From: an uncultured Eubacteriales bacterium
GTDB lineage: Bacteria; Bacillota; Clostridia; Christensenellales; Aristaeellaceae
DNA: 60,731 nt
Assembly: GCA_902778995.1 (NCBI GenBank)
Contig: CACYZW010000005.1
Coordinates: 1 to 60,731, forward strand
Reading direction: 5' to 3'
In this document: positions 51,492-57,682 of the stretch, one piece after another
Position numbering within the stretch: the first letter of the stretch is position 1
How the letters are laid out: each line of letters opens with the position of its first letter
Notes under the pieces: model-generated
Seen by the model: only the letters and a program-made list of their open reading frames with translations
Databases searched by the model: none
What the model was told of the DNA's origin: nothing
Made by a program: the position numbers and the translations under genes

Positions 51492-52247
51492 CTACTGCGC
51501 GACGATTTCCATAAAGAGCCGGTTCAGGGCCGCCCAATCCCGGTTTCGATCGTCGGGCATGGCCGCGCCGATGGCCTTCTGCCGGGGCAATTCATCGCGT
51601 ATGAACGACTGTATCTCCGGGATATGGGGAAGCTGCTCCGATTCCGTCGTGCGCTTCTTCACCTCCAGCAGCCGGTCGATGGCCGCCCGCAGGGTCGGCT
51701 CGATGTCCATGTTCAACAGGTCGTCAAACCGCACGGGCGGCTCCCCGTGGTATGTTTCGATGTACCGGGCGGCCAGCAGCGGACGGAGCGCGTAAAAATA
51801 CTTCTTGTACCGAACGGTGTCCCCGTTCAGATGCTTCACCCATGTGGACGCGGCGGTGCCGTAATAGTGGTTGACCGCGGTTTTTCCGGAGAAATAGTCC
51901 TTCGACAGCGCCCGCGCGCGGTCCCATTCCGGCGTCGTTTCGTAGACGATGGGCGAGTTGTTCCACTCAAAGAGGGTCGCGTTGGCCTGTTGCAGATGCT
52001 TCAACGCCTTGCGCAAATCCCAGCCGTTGATGTCCAAAACCTCGTCCAGCTGCCATTCGATCACATCCCGGGGCTCGTCCAGGCGAAGATAGTCGGACAT
52101 GGGACGGACGTAGATAAAGCGCACGTCATAGTCGCTGTCCGGAGACGCGAAGCCCCAGGCGCGGCTGCCGGATTCTGCGGCGTGCAGTATGCGCACGCCA
52201 TGCTGTTCTTCTATCTTGCGCAGCTGACGCACTATGGTTTCCTTCAT
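51492..52247 (-). CDS. RlaP-like nucleotidyltransferase (first of pair)
   Basis: The 251-residue protein starts at the ATG at 52247, with GAGGGGG upstream. The pol-beta nucleotidyltransferase motif is HAAESGSRAWGFASPDSDYDVRFIYV (GS...G...DxD), followed by VIEWQLDEVLDINGWDLRKALKHLQQANATLFEWNNSPIVY, which matches PF10127, the family named RNA-ligase-associated nucleotidyltransferase (RlaP). Family knowledge suggests a role in RNA end repair or modification. Here it is paired with a second member and lies beside a tRNA-like RNA array, with no RNA ligase in view. Confidence 0.85.
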   Translation of the reverse strand: MKETIVRQLRKIEEQHGVRILHAAESGSRAWGFASPDSDYDVRFIYVRPMSDYLRLDEPRDVIEWQLDEVLDINGWDLRKALKHLQQANATLFEWNNSPIVYETTPEWDRARALSKDYFSGKTAVNHYYGTAASTWVKHLNGDTVRYKKYFYALRPLLAARYIETYHGEPPVRFDDLLNMDIEPTLRAAIDRLLEVKKRTTESEQLPHIPEIQSFIRDELPRQKAIGAAMPDDRNRDWAALNRLFMEIVAQ

Positions 52248-52298
52248 ATATTCGATACCCCCTCGTTTATCTGGCCGCACTGACCTGCGCCGCCAGGC

Positions 52299-53315
52299 TC
52301 ACAGGCTCATCCGATTGACGTGCTCCACAAACGCGGCTATCCGCGCCATATCGGGCTCGTCCGGAAGGGTCGTGCGCTTCGCGGCCTCCCGGAATCGCCG
52401 TTCGTACTGGTCGAGCATGTCGAAAAAATCCTTCGACAGGGTGCTGTCCGCCTGCATGAAGCCGCCCTCCCGAATCTTCATCAGCAACGGCAGATCGTCC
52501 TGCCGACAGGTGATGATCTCATGCTTTTCGAGGATGTCAATGCCCGTCATCAGCAGGCGAATCAGGTGCATCGCGTGCTTGTTGAGGTGATTGTCGTCCT
52601 TCTTATGGTCGCGATGGCCGACCTTGTTGTAATCGCGCACGACGTTGCGCAGCGTTTCTATGAGGCTGTTGTATTCGCGCAGCGGAAGGTGGGTGTACGC
52701 CGCGTCCACAAATATCTCGGTATCCAGCCCCTCCGTCACCGCGTCGTCGATGTAAAGGCGCATGCGACCCTCGGCGGCGAGCAGGCTCTTGCGGTTGAAG
52801 TCATCCAGCGCGTTCTGCACCGAATTCAGCACGTGCCGCTCGCGGTCCGACTGGGAGAGGGCGTCGCGGGCGATGGCGTTTTGAAGCCTTCGCAGCTGGG
52901 CGCTGGCGTATCCTCCAAAGGCCCTGATCGCGCGCTTGGACAGGAACAGGATGCGGTTGTCAAGCAGCGCCTGTCCCAGCGGCGATACGATCATATATTT
53001 TTCCGGCGGCAGACCCAGTACCTCAAAGCAGTTGGGATTGCACTCCAGCAGGAGGCGGATCATCTTGTTGAAGCCGAATATAACGGTGTCGGTGGCCGTA
53101 TCCACATACTGCTCAAACGCCGTCAGGCCCAGCAGATCCGATGGCAGTTGCAGCGTGACGCCGCGAAAATCGATGTCGCTGCCCGCCCTGTTGGTGCCGT
53201 AGCCATAGCTGCCGGACAGGCCCAGCAGCATGATGCGGCTCCCGAACCGCTCGTTATTCCTGAGGAAATCGTAATCAGCGGATTGCAGCAGCGCTTCAAA
53301 ATCAGGTATACCCAT
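52299..53315 (-). CDS. RlaP-like nucleotidyltransferase (second of pair)
   Basis: The 338-residue protein begins after AAAGGGGGAAA. Its active-site region is GLSGSYGYGTNRAGSDIDFRGV, and VIFGFNKMIRLLLECNPNCFEVLGLPPE is the second conserved block of PF10127. It has a longer C-terminal helical region than its partner. The stop lies 51 bases upstream of the partner's start, so the two form an operon reading away from the RNA array. Divergent sequence suggests different substrates or a heteromer. Confidence 0.85.
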   Translation of the reverse strand: MGIPDFEALLQSADYDFLRNNERFGSRIMLLGLSGSYGYGTNRAGSDIDFRGVTLQLPSDLLGLTAFEQYVDTATDTVIFGFNKMIRLLLECNPNCFEVLGLPPEKYMIVSPLGQALLDNRILFLSKRAIRAFGGYASAQLRRLQNAIARDALSQSDRERHVLNSVQNALDDFNRKSLLAAEGRMRLYIDDAVTEGLDTEIFVDAAYTHLPLREYNSLIETLRNVVRDYNKVGHRDHKKDDNHLNKHAMHLIRLLMTGIDILEKHEIITCRQDDLPLLMKIREGGFMQADSTLSKDFFDMLDQYERRFREAAKRTTLPDEPDMARIAAFVEHVNRMSL

Positions 53316-53481
53316 GGCGTTTCCCCCTTTTCATCAGATTATCATAACCGCCCTGGAATTGCAAGGGCTGTTTTACCGGGGCGATTTTTATATCTTTTAT
53401 GCTTCGCAACTTTTTTGCCGTGAAACGATGCCGGGCCTGTGGTAAAGTACAATCACCGCAAGGGAACAAGGCGGAAACGCC
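53316..53481. promoter_or_regulatory. Divergent control region between the nucleotidyltransferase pair and the RNA array
   Basis: The region holds the start of the minus-strand operon and the likely promoter of the plus-strand RNAs. Candidate -10 hexamers are TACAAT (53448-53453) and TAAAGT (53443-53448) on the plus strand, and TATGAT on the minus strand near 53352. None has a good -35, which may mean activator dependence. GGCG-GAAA-CGCC (53470-53481) is a small hairpin at the presumed 5' end of the first RNA. Confidence 0.35.
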
Positions 53482-53618
53482 TCCGAAGGAAAGGCTCCAA
53501 AGGCCAAAAGCACTCACAGCAAATGCTTACTTCTTTTTTTCACCACATAACCGCGGCCGTGAAACCGCAAATGGAGCATCGCTCCATACAAGAAGCCAAG
53601 TGCTTTGATTCCTTCGGA
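53482..53618 (+). ncRNA. Long-stem structured RNA (Y RNA-like candidate)
   Basis: TCCGAAGGAA (53482-53491) pairs perfectly with TTCCTTCGGA (53609-53618). Further in, AAAGCACT (53507-53514) pairs with AGTGCTTT (53599-53606) and CTTCTT (53530-53535) with AAGAAG (53590-53595). Two internal hairpins (GCGG/CCGC at 53553-53568; ATGGAGC-ATC-GCTCCAT at 53571-53587) fill the loop. A long interrupted stem from paired ends with a loaded loop is the Y RNA architecture, and UCCGAAGG also occurs in the Ro-binding helix of animal Y RNAs. Expression is not shown. Confidence 0.5.
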
Positions 53619-53639
53619 AGTCCCCTGCGGACATACCGC

Positions 53640-53712
53640 ACGCCGTTGGTCCGACCGGCCAAGCGCCTGATTCCCGATCAGGGGCGGCAGGGTTCGAATC
53701 CCCGACGGCGCA
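53640..53712 (+). tRNA. Degenerate tRNA-like unit, anticodon position CCC (Gly-like)
   Basis: The anticodon arm CCTGA-TTCCCGA-TCAGG and T arm CAGGG-TTCGAAT-CCCCG are recognisable. The acceptor ACGCCGT/ACGGCGC has one mismatch, the T stem one, and the D stem only two pairs, though the D loop keeps GG. No CCA is encoded. It follows the long-stem RNA by 21 bases and may be its tRNA-like module rather than a working tRNA. Confidence 0.55.
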
Positions 53713-53800
53713 CGGATAACGCAAAAGGTGGTGAACAGTATGAGCGCTGTGTTGTTACAGCGGAGGGGTAAAACAAAGCGGATAAAACCGCCTGTCCCGT

Positions 53801-53873
53801 GCGCCATTAGCCCAGCTGGCAGAGCACCTGACTTTTAATCAGGGAGTCCAGGGTTCGAATCCCTGATGGCGCA
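53801..53873 (+). tRNA. tRNA-Lys (anticodon TTT)
   Basis: The acceptor GCGCCAT/ATGGCGC, anticodon arm CCTGA-CTTTTAA-TCAGG and T arm CAGGG-TTCGAAT-CCCTG are perfect. The D stem has one mismatch. U33 is present. No CCA is encoded (TGC follows), unlike tRNA-Gln at 49723. It looks functional. Confidence 0.87.
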
Positions 53874-53880
53874 TGCAACG

Positions 53881-53999
53881 GCATCGTGAACAAAACCTTC
53901 CCGTGGTGATGCTAATTTCGACTGATTTGTTCAAAACGGCGGCTTAACCCCTTTGGCAGAGCCCAATGAGCGGCAAAGGGGCGCAGGCCCCGACCCGCA
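53881..53999 (+). ncRNA. Structured spacer RNA between the two tRNA-Lys units
   Basis: TGAACAAA (53887-53894) pairs with TTTGTTCA (53926-53933), and CCCCTTTG (53948-53955) pairs with CAAAGGGG (53974-53981), with a loop containing GGCAGAGCCC. GGGGC/GCCCC pairing follows. There is no ORF. The loop string GGCAGAG is shared with the D arms of the adjacent tRNA-Lys units, hinting at another decayed tRNA-like unit. Confidence 0.4.
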
Positions 54000-54005
54000 A
54001 GACAT

Positions 54006-54081
54006 GCATTCGTAACTCAACAGGCAGAGTACCGGTCCCTTAAACCGGGCCATGCAGGTTCGAAGCCTGCCGGATGCACCA
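54006..54081 (+). tRNA. tRNA-Lys (anticodon CTT), with C at position 33
   Basis: The acceptor GCATTCG/CGGATGC (one G-T), D arm ACTC/GAGT, anticodon arm CCGGT-CCCTTAA-ACCGG and T arm GCAGG-TTCGAAG-CCTGC are paired, and CCA is encoded at 54079-54081. The anticodon loop has C where almost all tRNAs have U33, which would disturb the U-turn. It may be poorly decoding or serve another role. Confidence 0.75.
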
Positions 54082-54084
54082 ACA

Positions 54085-54184
54085 AAGGCACGTACAGCAA
54101 ATACTTTGGCAATACGCTTTCAGTATTTGGAGCAGGTTCGACTCCTGCACAAGCGCGGTCGCTTCCGGCAAAACAACGTGCCTT
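54085..54184 (+). ncRNA. tRNA-like RNA closed by a 9-bp stem
   Basis: AAGGCACGT (54085-54093) pairs with ACGTGCCTT (54176-54184). Inside lie an anticodon-like arm AATAC-GCTTTCA-GTATT and a perfect T arm GCAGG-TTCGACT-CCTGC, but no tRNA acceptor pair. A tRNA-like core inside an extra closing stem is not a normal tRNA and resembles the modular design of tRNA-mimicking bacterial Y RNAs. Confidence 0.5.
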
Positions 54185-54190
54185 GTCCAT

Positions 54191-54262
54191 GGCTCCCTGG
54201 TCCAACGGCAGCGACGCCGGGCCATCCGCCCGGAAATGTGGGTTCGAATCCCATGGGAGTTG
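54191..54262 (+). tRNA. tRNA-like unit, anticodon position ATC
   Basis: The acceptor GGCTCCC/GGGAGTT pairs with two G-T pairs, anticodon arm CCGGG-CCATCCG-CCCGG and T arm GTGGG-TTCGAAT-CCCAT are good, and the D stem has three pairs. The loop again has C at position 33 and an A at 34, which is not expected for a decoding tRNA-Asp. The 3' end reads GCCCA, close to but not exactly CCA. Confidence 0.5.
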
Positions 54263-54386
54263 CCCAGCCGGAAAAGCGCCTGCAGCAGTTCATTTTGCAC
54301 CATTAAACTTCGGTCCGTTGCGAAAGGATCACGGCGCTTTGGCGGCATACCATTGTAAACATACTCTACGGAAAGGAGAGATCGTC

Positions 54387-55841
54387 ATGCTGCAGATTTT
54401 GAAGAACCTTACCAATAAGACCCTCACCGAGAACGGCGCGGTGACCCTTCGATCCACCGGCTCGGAGTGCCTCGACCTGTTCGCCACCATCGGCGCCCTG
54501 CGCAATGCCAGCGACGCGGAGATCGAGACCCGCTTCCTGCGCGCCTACGCCGAAAACCCCGACCTGGCCATGAAGATTCTCTTCTACGCCCGTGATATCC
54601 GCGGCGGCCTGGGCGAGCGCCGGGTGTTCAGGGTGCTGATGCGCTGGCTGGCCCAGAACCAGCTGGCCTCGGCGCTGCGCAACCTGCCCTATGTGGCCGA
54701 GTATGGCCGCTGGGACGACGTGCTGGCGCTGCTGGATACCCCCGCAAGGGGCGAGGCCGTGGCGCTGCTCAAGTACCAGTTCAGCCTGGACATGGCGGCG
54801 CTTGACAGGGGCGAGCCCGTCTCCCTGCTGGGCAAGTGGCTGCCCTCCGTGAACGCCTCCAATGATGACACCGTTCGCGCCGCGAAGCAGCTGGCCCGCG
54901 CCTTCGGCATGACCGACGCGCGGTACCGCAGGGCGCTGTCCGCGCTGCGCCGGACCATCCGAATCCTGGAAAACAACCTGCGCGAGAGGGATTATTCCTT
55001 CGACTATGCGCAGCAGCCCTCGAAGGCCATGTTCAAGTATCGGCGTGCCTTCCTGCGCAACGACGAGGCCCGCTACCGCGGCTTCATGGAGAAGGTCAAT
55101 CGGGGCGAGGCCACAGTGAACACCGGCGCCCTGATGCCCTACGAGATCGTAGAGGCGGCCTATGAAGCATCCGAGGCAGACCGCGCATCGCTGAACATGA
55201 CCTGGAACGCGCTGGAGGACTTCACCGACGACGAGAACGCCCTGGTGGTGGCGGACGGCTCCTACTCCATGTATTGTTGCGGCAAGCCCACCCCCGCAGC
55301 CGTGGCGCAGTCCCTGGCGATCTATTTCGCCCAGCGCAACCGCGGCGCGTTCCGCAACGCCTTCATCACCTTCTCCATGAATCCCCGCCTTGTAGAGCTC
55401 AAGGGCTCGGACATCGTGGAGGTCGTGCGCTACTGCCGCACCTTTGACGAGTGTGCGAACACCAATCTGCAAAAGGTCTTTGAGCTGATCCTGCGGGCGG
55501 CGGTGGAGAACCGCGTGCCCCAGGCGGAGCTGCCCTCGACCCTGTACATCGTCTCCGATATGGAATTCGACCTGTGCGCAAAGAACGCCTCCCTGACCAA
55601 CTTCGAGCAGGCCAATGAGCTGTACCGGCGTTACGGCTACCGTCTGCCCCGGGTGGTGTTCTGGAACGTGCAGTCCCGCAACCGGCAGCAGCCCGTGAGC
55701 AGCAACGCGCAGGGCGTGGCACTGGTATCCGGCTGCACCGCCCGGATCTTCTCCCAGGTCATGAAGGGCGATTTGGACCCCTACCGCAACATGATGTACG
55801 TGGTGGGCTCCGATCGCTACGCCGTGATCCAGGCGGCCTGA
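54387..55841 (+). CDS. DUF2828/TROVE-like protein with von Willebrand A domain (Ro60-like architecture)
   Basis: The 484-residue protein starts at the ATG at 54387 after AAAGGAG. Residues ~20-280 are helical repeats with ENPDLAMKILFYARDIRGGLGERRVFRVLMRWLA, typical of DUF2828 and related to the TROVE RNA-binding ring. Residues ~285-480 are a vWA domain with the metal site DGSYSM, a threonine in ANTNLQK and SDMEFD. This is the layout of Ro60/Rsr, which bind Y RNAs and misfolded RNAs. It lies directly downstream of the tRNA-like array. The DUF2828 name is more certain than the Ro60 analogy. RNA binding is inferred. Confidence 0.83.
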   Translation: MLQILKNLTNKTLTENGAVTLRSTGSECLDLFATIGALRNASDAEIETRFLRAYAENPDLAMKILFYARDIRGGLGERRVFRVLMRWLAQNQLASALRNLPYVAEYGRWDDVLALLDTPARGEAVALLKYQFSLDMAALDRGEPVSLLGKWLPSVNASNDDTVRAAKQLARAFGMTDARYRRALSALRRTIRILENNLRERDYSFDYAQQPSKAMFKYRRAFLRNDEARYRGFMEKVNRGEATVNTGALMPYEIVEAAYEASEADRASLNMTWNALEDFTDDENALVVADGSYSMYCCGKPTPAAVAQSLAIYFAQRNRGAFRNAFITFSMNPRLVELKGSDIVEVVRYCRTFDECANTNLQKVFELILRAAVENRVPQAELPSTLYIVSDMEFDLCAKNASLTNFEQANELYRRYGYRLPRVVFWNVQSRNRQQPVSSNAQGVALVSGCTARIFSQVMKGDLDPYRNMMYVVGSDRYAVIQAA

Positions 55842-56659: not shown

Positions 56660-57682
56660 TCAAAACAGTATCGTATCCAGCCTGTCCACCAGCGCTGCGA
56701 TTTTCAGCCTGTAGTGCTCGATTTTCTCCCGGTCCCCATCGGTCAGCCCGTGCCTCCTGTATATCTTGCGGATCATCCGGGAATAGCTCACGATCGACGC
56801 CTTTTCCCGCACCGCCCTCAGCCGCGCCTCATCCTCTGTCTCCAGGTAGTGGGCCAGGAAGCGGTGGAAAAACTGTCGGGAGGTTTCATAGGAAAAGCCC
56901 TTGAAGCGCTCAGCCATCTTCGGATCGTCCTCGCCCAGCACCACATAGAAGTAATACAGGTCGCTGATTTCCGCGATGGGATGTCCCGTGGAGAACCGAT
57001 CCATGTCGATCAGCAGCGGCTCCCCATCTTGTAAAAATACGTTACCCGTGTGGAAATCCCCGTGGAGCAGGGTCTTGCGAACGGAGATTTCATTCACAAG
57101 TCCCATGCACTTTTTTGCGAGCGCCCGGTCCACGCGCCCAACCCCGCCTTCGATATAGGTTCTCAGCCTTTCCACAGCCTCCGGGAAGTCGTTCCCGGAA
57201 GCCTCGATGACGTGGATCGTATGGGCCAGCTCCGCCATGATCCTCGCATAGGTATCCACTTGTCCGGGGCTCCCGGCGATGTACCTCGAAATCGTCTCCG
57301 ACTCCACCAGCTCGTACATGGCCCCGTACCGATCCACGGCGCCGCTGCCCAGATCTTCGATTTGAGCCGCCGTCGTTTTTGCCAAGGTCAAAACCGACGG
57401 ACCCTCGGGGCTTGACGCCTTTACGGAGACGATGCCGAAGGGAATCGCGGTGGGAATGCCCATGATAAACGCCTTTCGGCTGAGGGCGATCTCCCGCTCC
57501 ACGTCGTGAAAGGTGTTTTTCTGATCGTTCACCTTGATCACCAGCTCGTCGTCGTAGCGGTACACAGCGCCCTTGGCCCCCCGTCCGATGAGCTTGCAGC
57601 CGTCGATGGAGACCTCCCGATACCTCCTGCGATGCGCCTTGTCCGCATCAAACGTCCCCGGCCAGACGAAGTTGATGTGCAT
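56660..57682 (-). CDS. Aminoglycoside phosphotransferase-like kinase
   Basis: The 340-residue protein begins after AAGGAG. It has a kinase-like glycine loop (LIGRGAKGAVYRYDDELVIKV), the catalytic loop LLHGDFHTGNVFLQ and the metal site LLIDMDRFSTGHP. It belongs to the APH/choline-kinase superfamily; many members phosphorylate small molecules other than antibiotics. The substrate is unknown. Confidence 0.84.
   Translation of the reverse strand: MHINFVWPGTFDADKAHRRRYREVSIDGCKLIGRGAKGAVYRYDDELVIKVNDQKNTFHDVEREIALSRKAFIMGIPTAIPFGIVSVKASSPEGPSVLTLAKTTAAQIEDLGSGAVDRYGAMYELVESETISRYIAGSPGQVDTYARIMAELAHTIHVIEASGNDFPEAVERLRTYIEGGVGRVDRALAKKCMGLVNEISVRKTLLHGDFHTGNVFLQDGEPLLIDMDRFSTGHPIAEISDLYYFYVVLGEDDPKMAERFKGFSYETSRQFFHRFLAHYLETEDEARLRAVREKASIVSYSRMIRKIYRRHGLTDGDREKIEHYRLKIAALVDRLDTILF

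Follow-up and report, generated by a model that had tools for sequence, protein, structure and literature searches.

A candidate Ro60-type locus with Y-like RNA elements and tRNA-like genes, and its WYL, RtcB and RlaP partners in Clostridia

The window analysed here, a stretch of 60,731 nucleotides, is one contig (C5) of the 3.88-Mb, 239-contig genome (completeness 83%) of an uncultured Eubacteriales bacterium of the family Aristaeellaceae. Between positions 51492 and 55841 it holds a minus-strand pair of PF10127 (RlaP-type) nucleotidyltransferase genes and, divergent from these on the plus strand, an array of tRNA and tRNA-like structures followed by the gene for a DUF2828/DUF7788 protein with a predicted Ro60/TROVE fold. 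We interpret this locus as encoding a Ro60-type ribonucleoprotein (RNP) with its own Y-like RNAs, which would belong to one tRNA-damage system together with RtcB, a pair of WYL-domain proteins (WYL1 and WYL2) and the RlaP pair; we put the probability of this reading at roughly 0.6. The fold prediction, the RNA family with its covariation and the genomic associations presented below were all computed, and comparison among genomes gives good support for placing a putative Ro60-type locus within a WYL–RtcB–RlaP set.

The RNA array and its two Y-like elements

Two Y-like RNA elements, additional to what an earlier note on this DNA had recorded, were identified on the plus strand. Element 1 (53507–53606) comprises an 8-bp outer stem (AAAGCACT/AGTGCTTT), the motif ACAGCA, a 4-bp hairpin where a T arm would stand, and a capped stem of 7 bp; element 2 (54085–54184) comprises an 8-bp outer stem (AAGGCACG/CGTGCCTT), ACAGCA, an anticodon-arm-like hairpin, a T arm and a third hairpin. 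The folding z-scores are -3.59 for element 1 and -4.57 for element 2, with none of 200 shuffles equally good in either case. Matches to the 5' motif AARRYRCNNACAGCA number two in the 3.88-Mb genome, both within the array, against one match for a reversed control. At Rfam, no family other than tRNA was matched on the array strand up to an E-value of 1; the antisense strand gave one Plastid-ycf2 match below the gathering score, and 11 related loci gave only tRNA and the SAM riboswitch at gathering scores.

The elements are interspersed with four tRNA genes predicted by ARAGORN on the plus strand: a divergent tRNA-Gly(CCC)-like gene (53640–53713); a tRNA-Lys(UUU) gene with the canonical anticodon loop CTTTTAA (53800–53874); a tRNA-Lys(CUU)-like gene with C for U at position 33 and an encoded CCA (54006–54081); and a tRNA-Asp-like gene (AUC) with the non-canonical loop CCATCCG (54190–54266). 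Element 1 heads the array, and element 2 follows the Lys-CUU-like gene by 3 nt and is followed after 5 nt by the Asp-like gene. Seven of the eight open reading frames (ORFs) of at least 60 aa lying wholly inside the gap were scanned and matched no Pfam family, in keeping with the earlier description of a protein-free stretch bearing tRNA and tRNA-like structures. The covariance search proposed in that note (Infernal with RF00005, run on 5.5 kb around the array and separately on the whole genome) bore out the two lysine genes clearly, at 67.1 bits (UUU) and 52.9 bits (CUU), and left the other two marginal: the Gly-like gene scored 26.7 bits, below the gathering score of 29, and is absent from the whole-genome listing, and the Asp-like gene scored 38.5 bits in the whole-genome scan and is absent from the 5.5-kb listing. 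Decoding tRNAs carry U at anticodon-loop position 33. This base is present in the Gly-like and Lys-UUU genes and replaced by C in the Lys-CUU-like and Asp-like genes, so two of the four array genes depart from the rule for decoding-competent tRNAs. The Lys-CUU-like loop, CCCTTAA, recurs at two related loci (L070 and L076), and canonical Gly-CCC (contig C139) and Lys-CUU genes are present elsewhere in the window genome.

A covarying stem family upstream of DUF2828 genes

DUF2828 loci were compared in 200 genomes of the same family, with 32 loci fetched from 27 genomes other than that of the window, and in named genomes, where the sample leans to close relatives because it consists of the best 80 of at least 551 loci, some of them clipped by contig ends. 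DUF2828 proteins that share at least about 49% identity with the protein of the window are referred to as clade A (98 loci), and a more distant DUF2828 clade as clade B. The element plan, which was first read in three gaps upstream of DUF2828 genes, begins with an 8-nt arm, a single base and ACAGCA; after a core that varies, the arm returns as its reverse complement. Within 2 kb upstream in the 98 clade A loci there are 289 ACAGCA motifs; for 147 of these, a sequence exactly complementary to the motif's own arm follows at no more than 200 nt, compared with 10 of 572 same-locus swaps and 95 of 5585 between-locus swaps.

The stems of these elements covary. Among 195 arm pairs picked by motif, Watson-Crick pairs occupy arm positions 3, 4, 5, 6, and 8 in 183, 178, 183, 179, and 138 cases, respectively, against maxima of 143, 119, 139, 112, and 68 over 500 shuffles. 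When all 6-mers are ranked by the complementary-arm property, ACAGCA comes first in clade A (208/305 occurrences, 82 loci), in viral contigs (130/330, 42 loci) and in seven isolated phages (16/45, five phages), and falls outside the top eight in nine TROVE loci and on the antisense strand. The same-locus swap test, the motif-defined pairs and the 6-mer ranking are free of stem selection; outer-stem conservation in the structural alignments A2–A4, by contrast, holds by construction, since a perfect 7-bp stem was the rule by which their members were chosen. Four contig twins (L049, L062, L052, and L058, the contigs of L069, L070, L090, and L112, respectively) were excluded from the swap test and the core counts. 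The motif AARRYRCNNACAGCA by itself is not specific, with matches in 14 of 21 genomes without DUF2828 as against 20 of 21 clade A genomes, and specificity therefore rests on the stem. Upstream elements with a 7-bp arm were found for 73 of the 80 DUF2828 genes from named genomes, or for 72 of 76 when only loci with over 300 nt of upstream sequence are counted, which supports the earlier reading of structured, tRNA-like RNAs beside this gene.

It might be argued that these elements function at the DNA level and not as RNA, either as hairpins for recombination or as sites for a regulator; their constant ends and variable cores are reminiscent of cassette arrays, and WYL proteins are often DNA-binding regulators. 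This we regard as scarcely credible, given that complementarity is kept across 41 distinct arm sequences, that the cores are of tRNA type, that no integrase was found among ten scanned representatives of neighbour clusters, and that upstream elements number 1.20 per kb on the gene strand against 0.18 on the antisense strand (a count that kept the four contig twins and included the clade B locus L065).

The cores of the 209 elements found in 82 of the 98 clade A loci frequently resemble parts of tRNA. An anticodon-type stem-loop is present in 65 cores (100 dinucleotide shuffles: mean 1.96, maximum 7; a looser count of 93/209 also took in T arms) and a T arm in 66 (mean 0.07, maximum 2), with both arms in 24. 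Three layouts recur. In the full tRNA-like layout the outer stem encloses a D arm, an anticodon arm and a T arm; alignment A2 covers 21 of 26 such elements, with changes on both sides in 12 of 21 pairs. The permuted layout consists of a T arm, a capped acceptor-like stem and a D arm; alignment A4 covers 13 of 15, with both-side changes in 8 of 21 pairs. The third consists of an anticodon stem-loop with little else, for example with canonical Lys, Arg, Ser, Tyr, or Asn loops. Element 2 is one of 13 aligned relatives (A3, covering 13 of 13 of its type; mean column identity 81%), among which both-side changes are few (1 of 26 pairs) because the sequences are alike. On their near-constant stem, these relatives carry a Lys loop (CTTTTAA) in four cases, a Glu loop (CTTTCAC) in four, three of which are from one genus, an Asn loop (CTGTTAA) in one, and a non-canonical loop in four, including the window.

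In the nearest clade (the window and L069–L083, 25 elements), 10 elements have an upstream tRNA and all of these start 2–10 nt after its 3' end; the other 15 have none. More broadly, DUF2828 genes adjoin tRNA arrays in many phages, and a tRNA lies 0–1 kb upstream on the strand of the DUF2828 gene at 35 of 79 viral loci and at 28 of 73 loci from genomes; such counts, together with the canonical loop and high score of one window tRNA, would suit an ordinary phage-type tRNA cluster beside an unrelated gene. For the elements this explanation is contradicted, as they covary, differ from plain tRNAs and go together with DUF2828 genes, and for the tRNAs themselves it must reckon with two of four that lack U33 and two that have canonical counterparts elsewhere; overall we consider it very unlikely. 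Large clusters do occur: 26 and 27 tRNA genes lie upstream of DUF2828 in a Clostridiales locus (L125) and a Mogibacterium locus (L132), with RtcB inside the cluster. In three viral contigs (L149, L150, and L151) a tRNA with a CTA anticodon (tRNA-Pyl according to ARAGORN), possibly an amber-suppressor tRNA, ends 386–623 nt upstream of DUF2828. A 247-kb Subdoligranulum variabile plasmid record, typed as non-mobilizable (L252), has four ACAGCA elements upstream of DUF2828.

A predicted Ro60 fold for the DUF2828 protein

The protein encoded immediately downstream of the array (54387–55841, plus strand; 484 aa) matches DUF2828 (130.3 bits) and DUF7788 (128.2 bits) in Pfam, and its gene likely starts at ATG 54387 rather than at TTG 54183 of the ORF list. 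An AlphaFold model (pLDDT 81.8, pTM 0.67) was compared by Foldseek, and the top 12 matches were all Ro60/TROVE, which suggests that the protein has a helical-repeat ring and a von Willebrand factor A (vWA) domain arranged as in Ro60. The metal-site (MIDAS) motif of the vWA domain, which we take to be DxSxS..T..D, is represented by D290, S292, S294, T359, and D391, invariant across the 20 DUF2828 proteins of alignment A1. The earlier suggestion of a TROVE-like protein with a vWA domain is thereby strengthened at the level of fold; TROVE (PF05731) itself is not among the Pfam matches of the window protein (at E ≤0.01, DUF2828 and DUF7788 only), nothing in the window genome matches PF05731 at E 0.001, and a search of solved structures with the A1 profile returned no match, so that the relation to Ro60 emerges through fold comparison. 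At window positions 55254–55271 the metal-site motif reads DGSYSM, and in the other 19 proteins of A1 it reads DGSGSM or DTSGSM.

The closest known counterpart is Rsr, the bacterial Ro60 (TROVE, PF05731), with its RNA YrlA: both systems would share a Ro60-type fold and an adjacently encoded RNA that combines a basal stem with a tRNA-like module. Two features by which Y RNAs are recognised were found here, namely a basal stem formed from the 5' and 3' ends and encoding beside a Ro-like gene (73 of 80 loci). The permuted T arm, capped acceptor and D arm of YrlA recur in the A4 subclass; the 13 aligned permuted elements of relatives fit this module, and window element 1 shows the 7-bp capped stem with a T-place hairpin of only 4 bp. 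By eye, seven of nine TROVE loci also show the permuted layout, without the ACAGCA stem; stem-pattern matches in two of them (L254 and L255) are widely spaced and seem fortuitous. The differences are that the protein matches DUF2828/DUF7788 instead of TROVE, that ACAGCA after the basal stem, typical of DUF2828 elements, is not enriched in the nine TROVE loci, and that DUF2828 loci have tRNA genes, more than one element each, and additional subclasses of the anticodon-arm and full tRNA-like types.

The 2014 survey by Chen (RNA 20:1715) reportedly found probable Y RNAs close to Ro60 in over 250 species of bacteria and phages. As Y RNAs beside Ro60 are already known, we regard the DUF2828 locus as a variant of the Ro60/Y RNA theme; what is new relative to known Ro loci is a stem type unseen in the TROVE loci, anticodon-loop modules, arrays interspersed with tRNAs, and the linkage to WYL. 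The Chen survey is cited for diverse bacteria and mycobacteriophages by PMC12282133, which itself suggests Y RNAs for a phage Rsr-like gene, and part of the phage elements may therefore already be in print. Within the limited literature searched, no description was met of the WYL–RtcB–DUF2828 set or of anticodon-arm elements, and the name DUF2828 was met only in work on plants.

Genomic partners and a proposed tRNA-damage system

Clustering of neighbouring ORFs yielded two WYL-domain proteins and RtcB; clusters 4, 6, and 10 were discarded, as they looked like antisense artefacts of the simple ORF caller. Fetched flanks of up to 6 kb contain the WYL1–WYL2 pair in 47 of the 80 named-genome loci, some WYL gene in 56 and RtcB in 40, and in 29 loci RtcB lies less than 250 nt downstream on the same strand. 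The 39 loci with long flanks have a WYL gene in 30 cases, RtcB in 24, and none of WYL, RtcB, or RlaP in five. The same search found no WYL, RtcB, or RlaP neighbour at 11 clade B loci. In the window genome, WYL1, WYL2, and RtcB (Pfam 201.7 bits) lie together on contig C90, as they likewise do in G010, whose DUF2828 protein is 81% identical to that of the window. The absence of an RNA ligase from the window, as earlier described, is thus accompanied by an RtcB gene elsewhere in the genome, and the notion of a self-contained island is not supported, since the WYL–RtcB half sits on another contig.

Across the 200 family genomes, the 22 with clade A DUF2828 overlap those with WYL1 (23) in 20 cases (Fisher one-sided p 2e-22), those with RtcB (51) in 19 (p 2e-10) and those with the RlaP2–RlaP1 pair (9) in seven (p 2e-6); these values, calculated without correction for relatedness, overstate the association, because clade A was set by identity after the loci had been seen and related genomes are not independent. 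With RtcB in the flanks of half of the named-genome loci, the overlaps bear out the suspected link to RNA repair. Arrays also occur beside the WYL genes: after WYL2, G104 and G082 have a permuted-tRNA element at the head, in the place of window element 1, then Lys-UUU, Asn, and Lys-CUU genes and a relative of element 2, and G055 has three tRNAs and an element 2 relative. In these three genomes, of another genus, the clade A genes are on other contigs and have no element upstream. Arrays of tRNAs and elements were also seen on short contigs, with no WYL or DUF2828 gene in the fetched stretch, at L295 (G169 contig C170) and L297 (G082 contig C106), so one genome can hold more than one array.

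RlaP is the RNA ligase-associated Pol beta nucleotidyltransferase. Both minus-strand genes of the window pass the PF10127 cut-off of 23 bits, as the earlier note had anticipated for two such genes side by side: RlaP2 (52299–53315), the divergent first gene of the pair, with 63.6 bits (and a match to the PHROG 388 nucleotidyltransferase at E 4e-49), and RlaP1 (51492–52280), the second, with 290.9 bits. Both are therefore PF10127 members by score, and RNA-end nucleotidyltransferase activity is predicted for them. In contrast to other RlaP, they form a conserved pair of unlike members, present in the same order in nine of the 200 family genomes (that of the window counted), and RtcB is on another contig; relatives of RlaP2 with 62–77% identity were found in eight of 14 fetched RlaP loci. 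The expectation that PF10127 genes lie near DUF2828 in other genomes holds at genome level, where seven of nine pair-bearing genomes have clade A DUF2828, and not as a rule for local adjacency, with RlaP1 in seven of 80 named-genome loci (under different organism names), RlaP2 in one, and neither in the 32 other family loci. Culturable carriers of the DUF2828 locus include Oscillibacter valericigenes Sjm18-20 (L104) and Butyrivibrio sp. AC2005 (L144), the latter having both RlaP genes as well. That local absence, and the location of RlaP and DUF2828 on different contigs of the draft assemblies in other genomes with both, would fit RlaP genes that are chance neighbours without a part in the Ro system; given the genome-level overlap, the RlaP1 genes in flanks and the presence of RlaP1 beside TROVE in two of nine loci (both of one genus), we consider this unlikely. 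At L240 (G148 contig C93), in a genome with only clade B DUF2828, the WYL1–WYL2 pair is directly followed by RlaP1.

For RNA binding, processing, damage signalling and the order of action we infer the following course. The DUF2828 Ro ring probably holds the array RNAs via their closing stem and ACAGCA, and each RNA would present a module, which in many cases resembles a complete tRNA, an elbow together with a capped acceptor, or an anticodon arm. In the nearest relatives, flanking tRNA genes often stop 2–10 nt short of an element, and it is probably through these genes that the RNAs are released by tRNA-processing enzymes. The WYL pair would respond to RNA damage, RtcB would seal broken tRNAs, and RlaP, predicted elsewhere to restore lost nucleotides (PMC7824862), would do so here, with the Ro RNP using its tRNA mimics to recruit or repel tRNA-acting enzymes. 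A more specific version, in which anticodon stem-loops and elbows of many tRNAs are presented by the Ro-like protein on a common stem as a panel of baits, so that rival or defence anticodon nucleases cut these instead of, or before, the tRNAs of the cell and the cut RNAs switch on WYL–RtcB–RlaP repair, is doubtful, and the shifts of loop identity among element 2 relatives are as expected if baits follow local nucleases.

The same RNAs could instead serve in RNA decay or quality control, as is the case in Deinococcus; they would tether the Ro ring to PNPase or another nuclease and direct the decay of damaged structured RNAs, with RtcB and RlaP as partners in the same stress response and not in one pathway. 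According to PMC8394870, YrlA tethers Rsr to PNPase and contains a tRNA-like module similar to the D, T, and acceptor arms, and the permuted A4 subclass has this layout; however, the anticodon arm of 65 of the 209 elements is missing from the cited description of YrlA, and the position of RtcB directly downstream in 29 of 80 loci favours sealing over decay. Decay is on balance a somewhat unlikely explanation.

Several results weigh against a tRNA-damage system built on a Ro60-type RNP. At the protein level, the pTM of the model is moderate and its rmsd to Ro60 large. As to the RNAs, no sigma-70-like promoter was found in 53300–54400; 102 of the 209 cores show neither tRNA arm in the test used; no upstream element is present at four of the 76 named-genome loci in which over 300 nt precede the gene, the 11 clade B loci have no perfect element, and the Vibrio V09 and Munch phages have none within 5 kb; and outside the nearest clade only 7 of 163 elements have a tRNA within 15 nt upstream, most therefore not being tRNA-flanked. 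Among the partners, three of the 22 clade A genomes lack an RtcB match and two lack WYL1, WYL1 is not enriched in the six genomes with clade B alone (1/6), and RtcA (PF01137) has no match in the window genome, which is 83% complete. Support from expression is confined to a phage, CKA15.

The Salmonella rsr-yrlBA-rtcBA operon likewise combines a Ro-like protein, a Y-like RNA and RtcB in one set; it differs from the present set, in which no RtcA was found, a WYL1–WYL2 pair accompanies RtcB, and the genes are split over two contigs. A tRNA-damage system of the kind proposed would make Ro-type RNPs, RtcB, and RlaP members of a single set that recurs in Clostridia, and DUF2828, found in gut bacteria and many phages, gains a predicted fold and a candidate RNA partner recognisable from its sequence. 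The question of why bacterial Ro RNAs mimic tRNAs becomes testable, and elements consisting of an anticodon stem-loop alone offer a direct handle on the competitor role once raised for YrlA (PMC7790460).

Phages carry related loci. The window protein falls into the family of phage Ro-like RNA-binding proteins (PHROG 850, E 2.8e-128), which 682 phage records match, and 35 of 69 distinct viral loci have ACAGCA elements within the sequence fetched. The phage loci differ in their neighbours, with WYL, RtcB, or RlaP at none of 80 viral loci (tblastn with clostridial queries), although Listeria phage LP-048 has an RtcB-like gene and a putative RNA ligase annotated downstream of DUF2828. Just upstream of DUF2828 in LP-048, three elements (at about 4649–4940 of L245) follow a TTGACA-17-TATCAT site (read by eye). 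In phage CKA15, three highly transcribed regions lie no more than 2 kb upstream of an Rsr-like gene and were suggested to be Y RNAs, and the product of that gene was detected in purified particles (PMC12282133). About 1 kb of LP-048 without an annotated protein (L245, 2988–4061) contains a tRNA-OTHER and two TTGACA promoter-like sites, one found by pattern and one by eye, and could give rise to RNAs like the abundant ones described in CKA15.

NCBIfam supplied no name for any of the three window proteins, and PADLOC, run on six proteins, named the WYL proteins only. Further along the window, an APH-like kinase (56660–57682) shows a weak TCAD9 match below the cut-off of that family.

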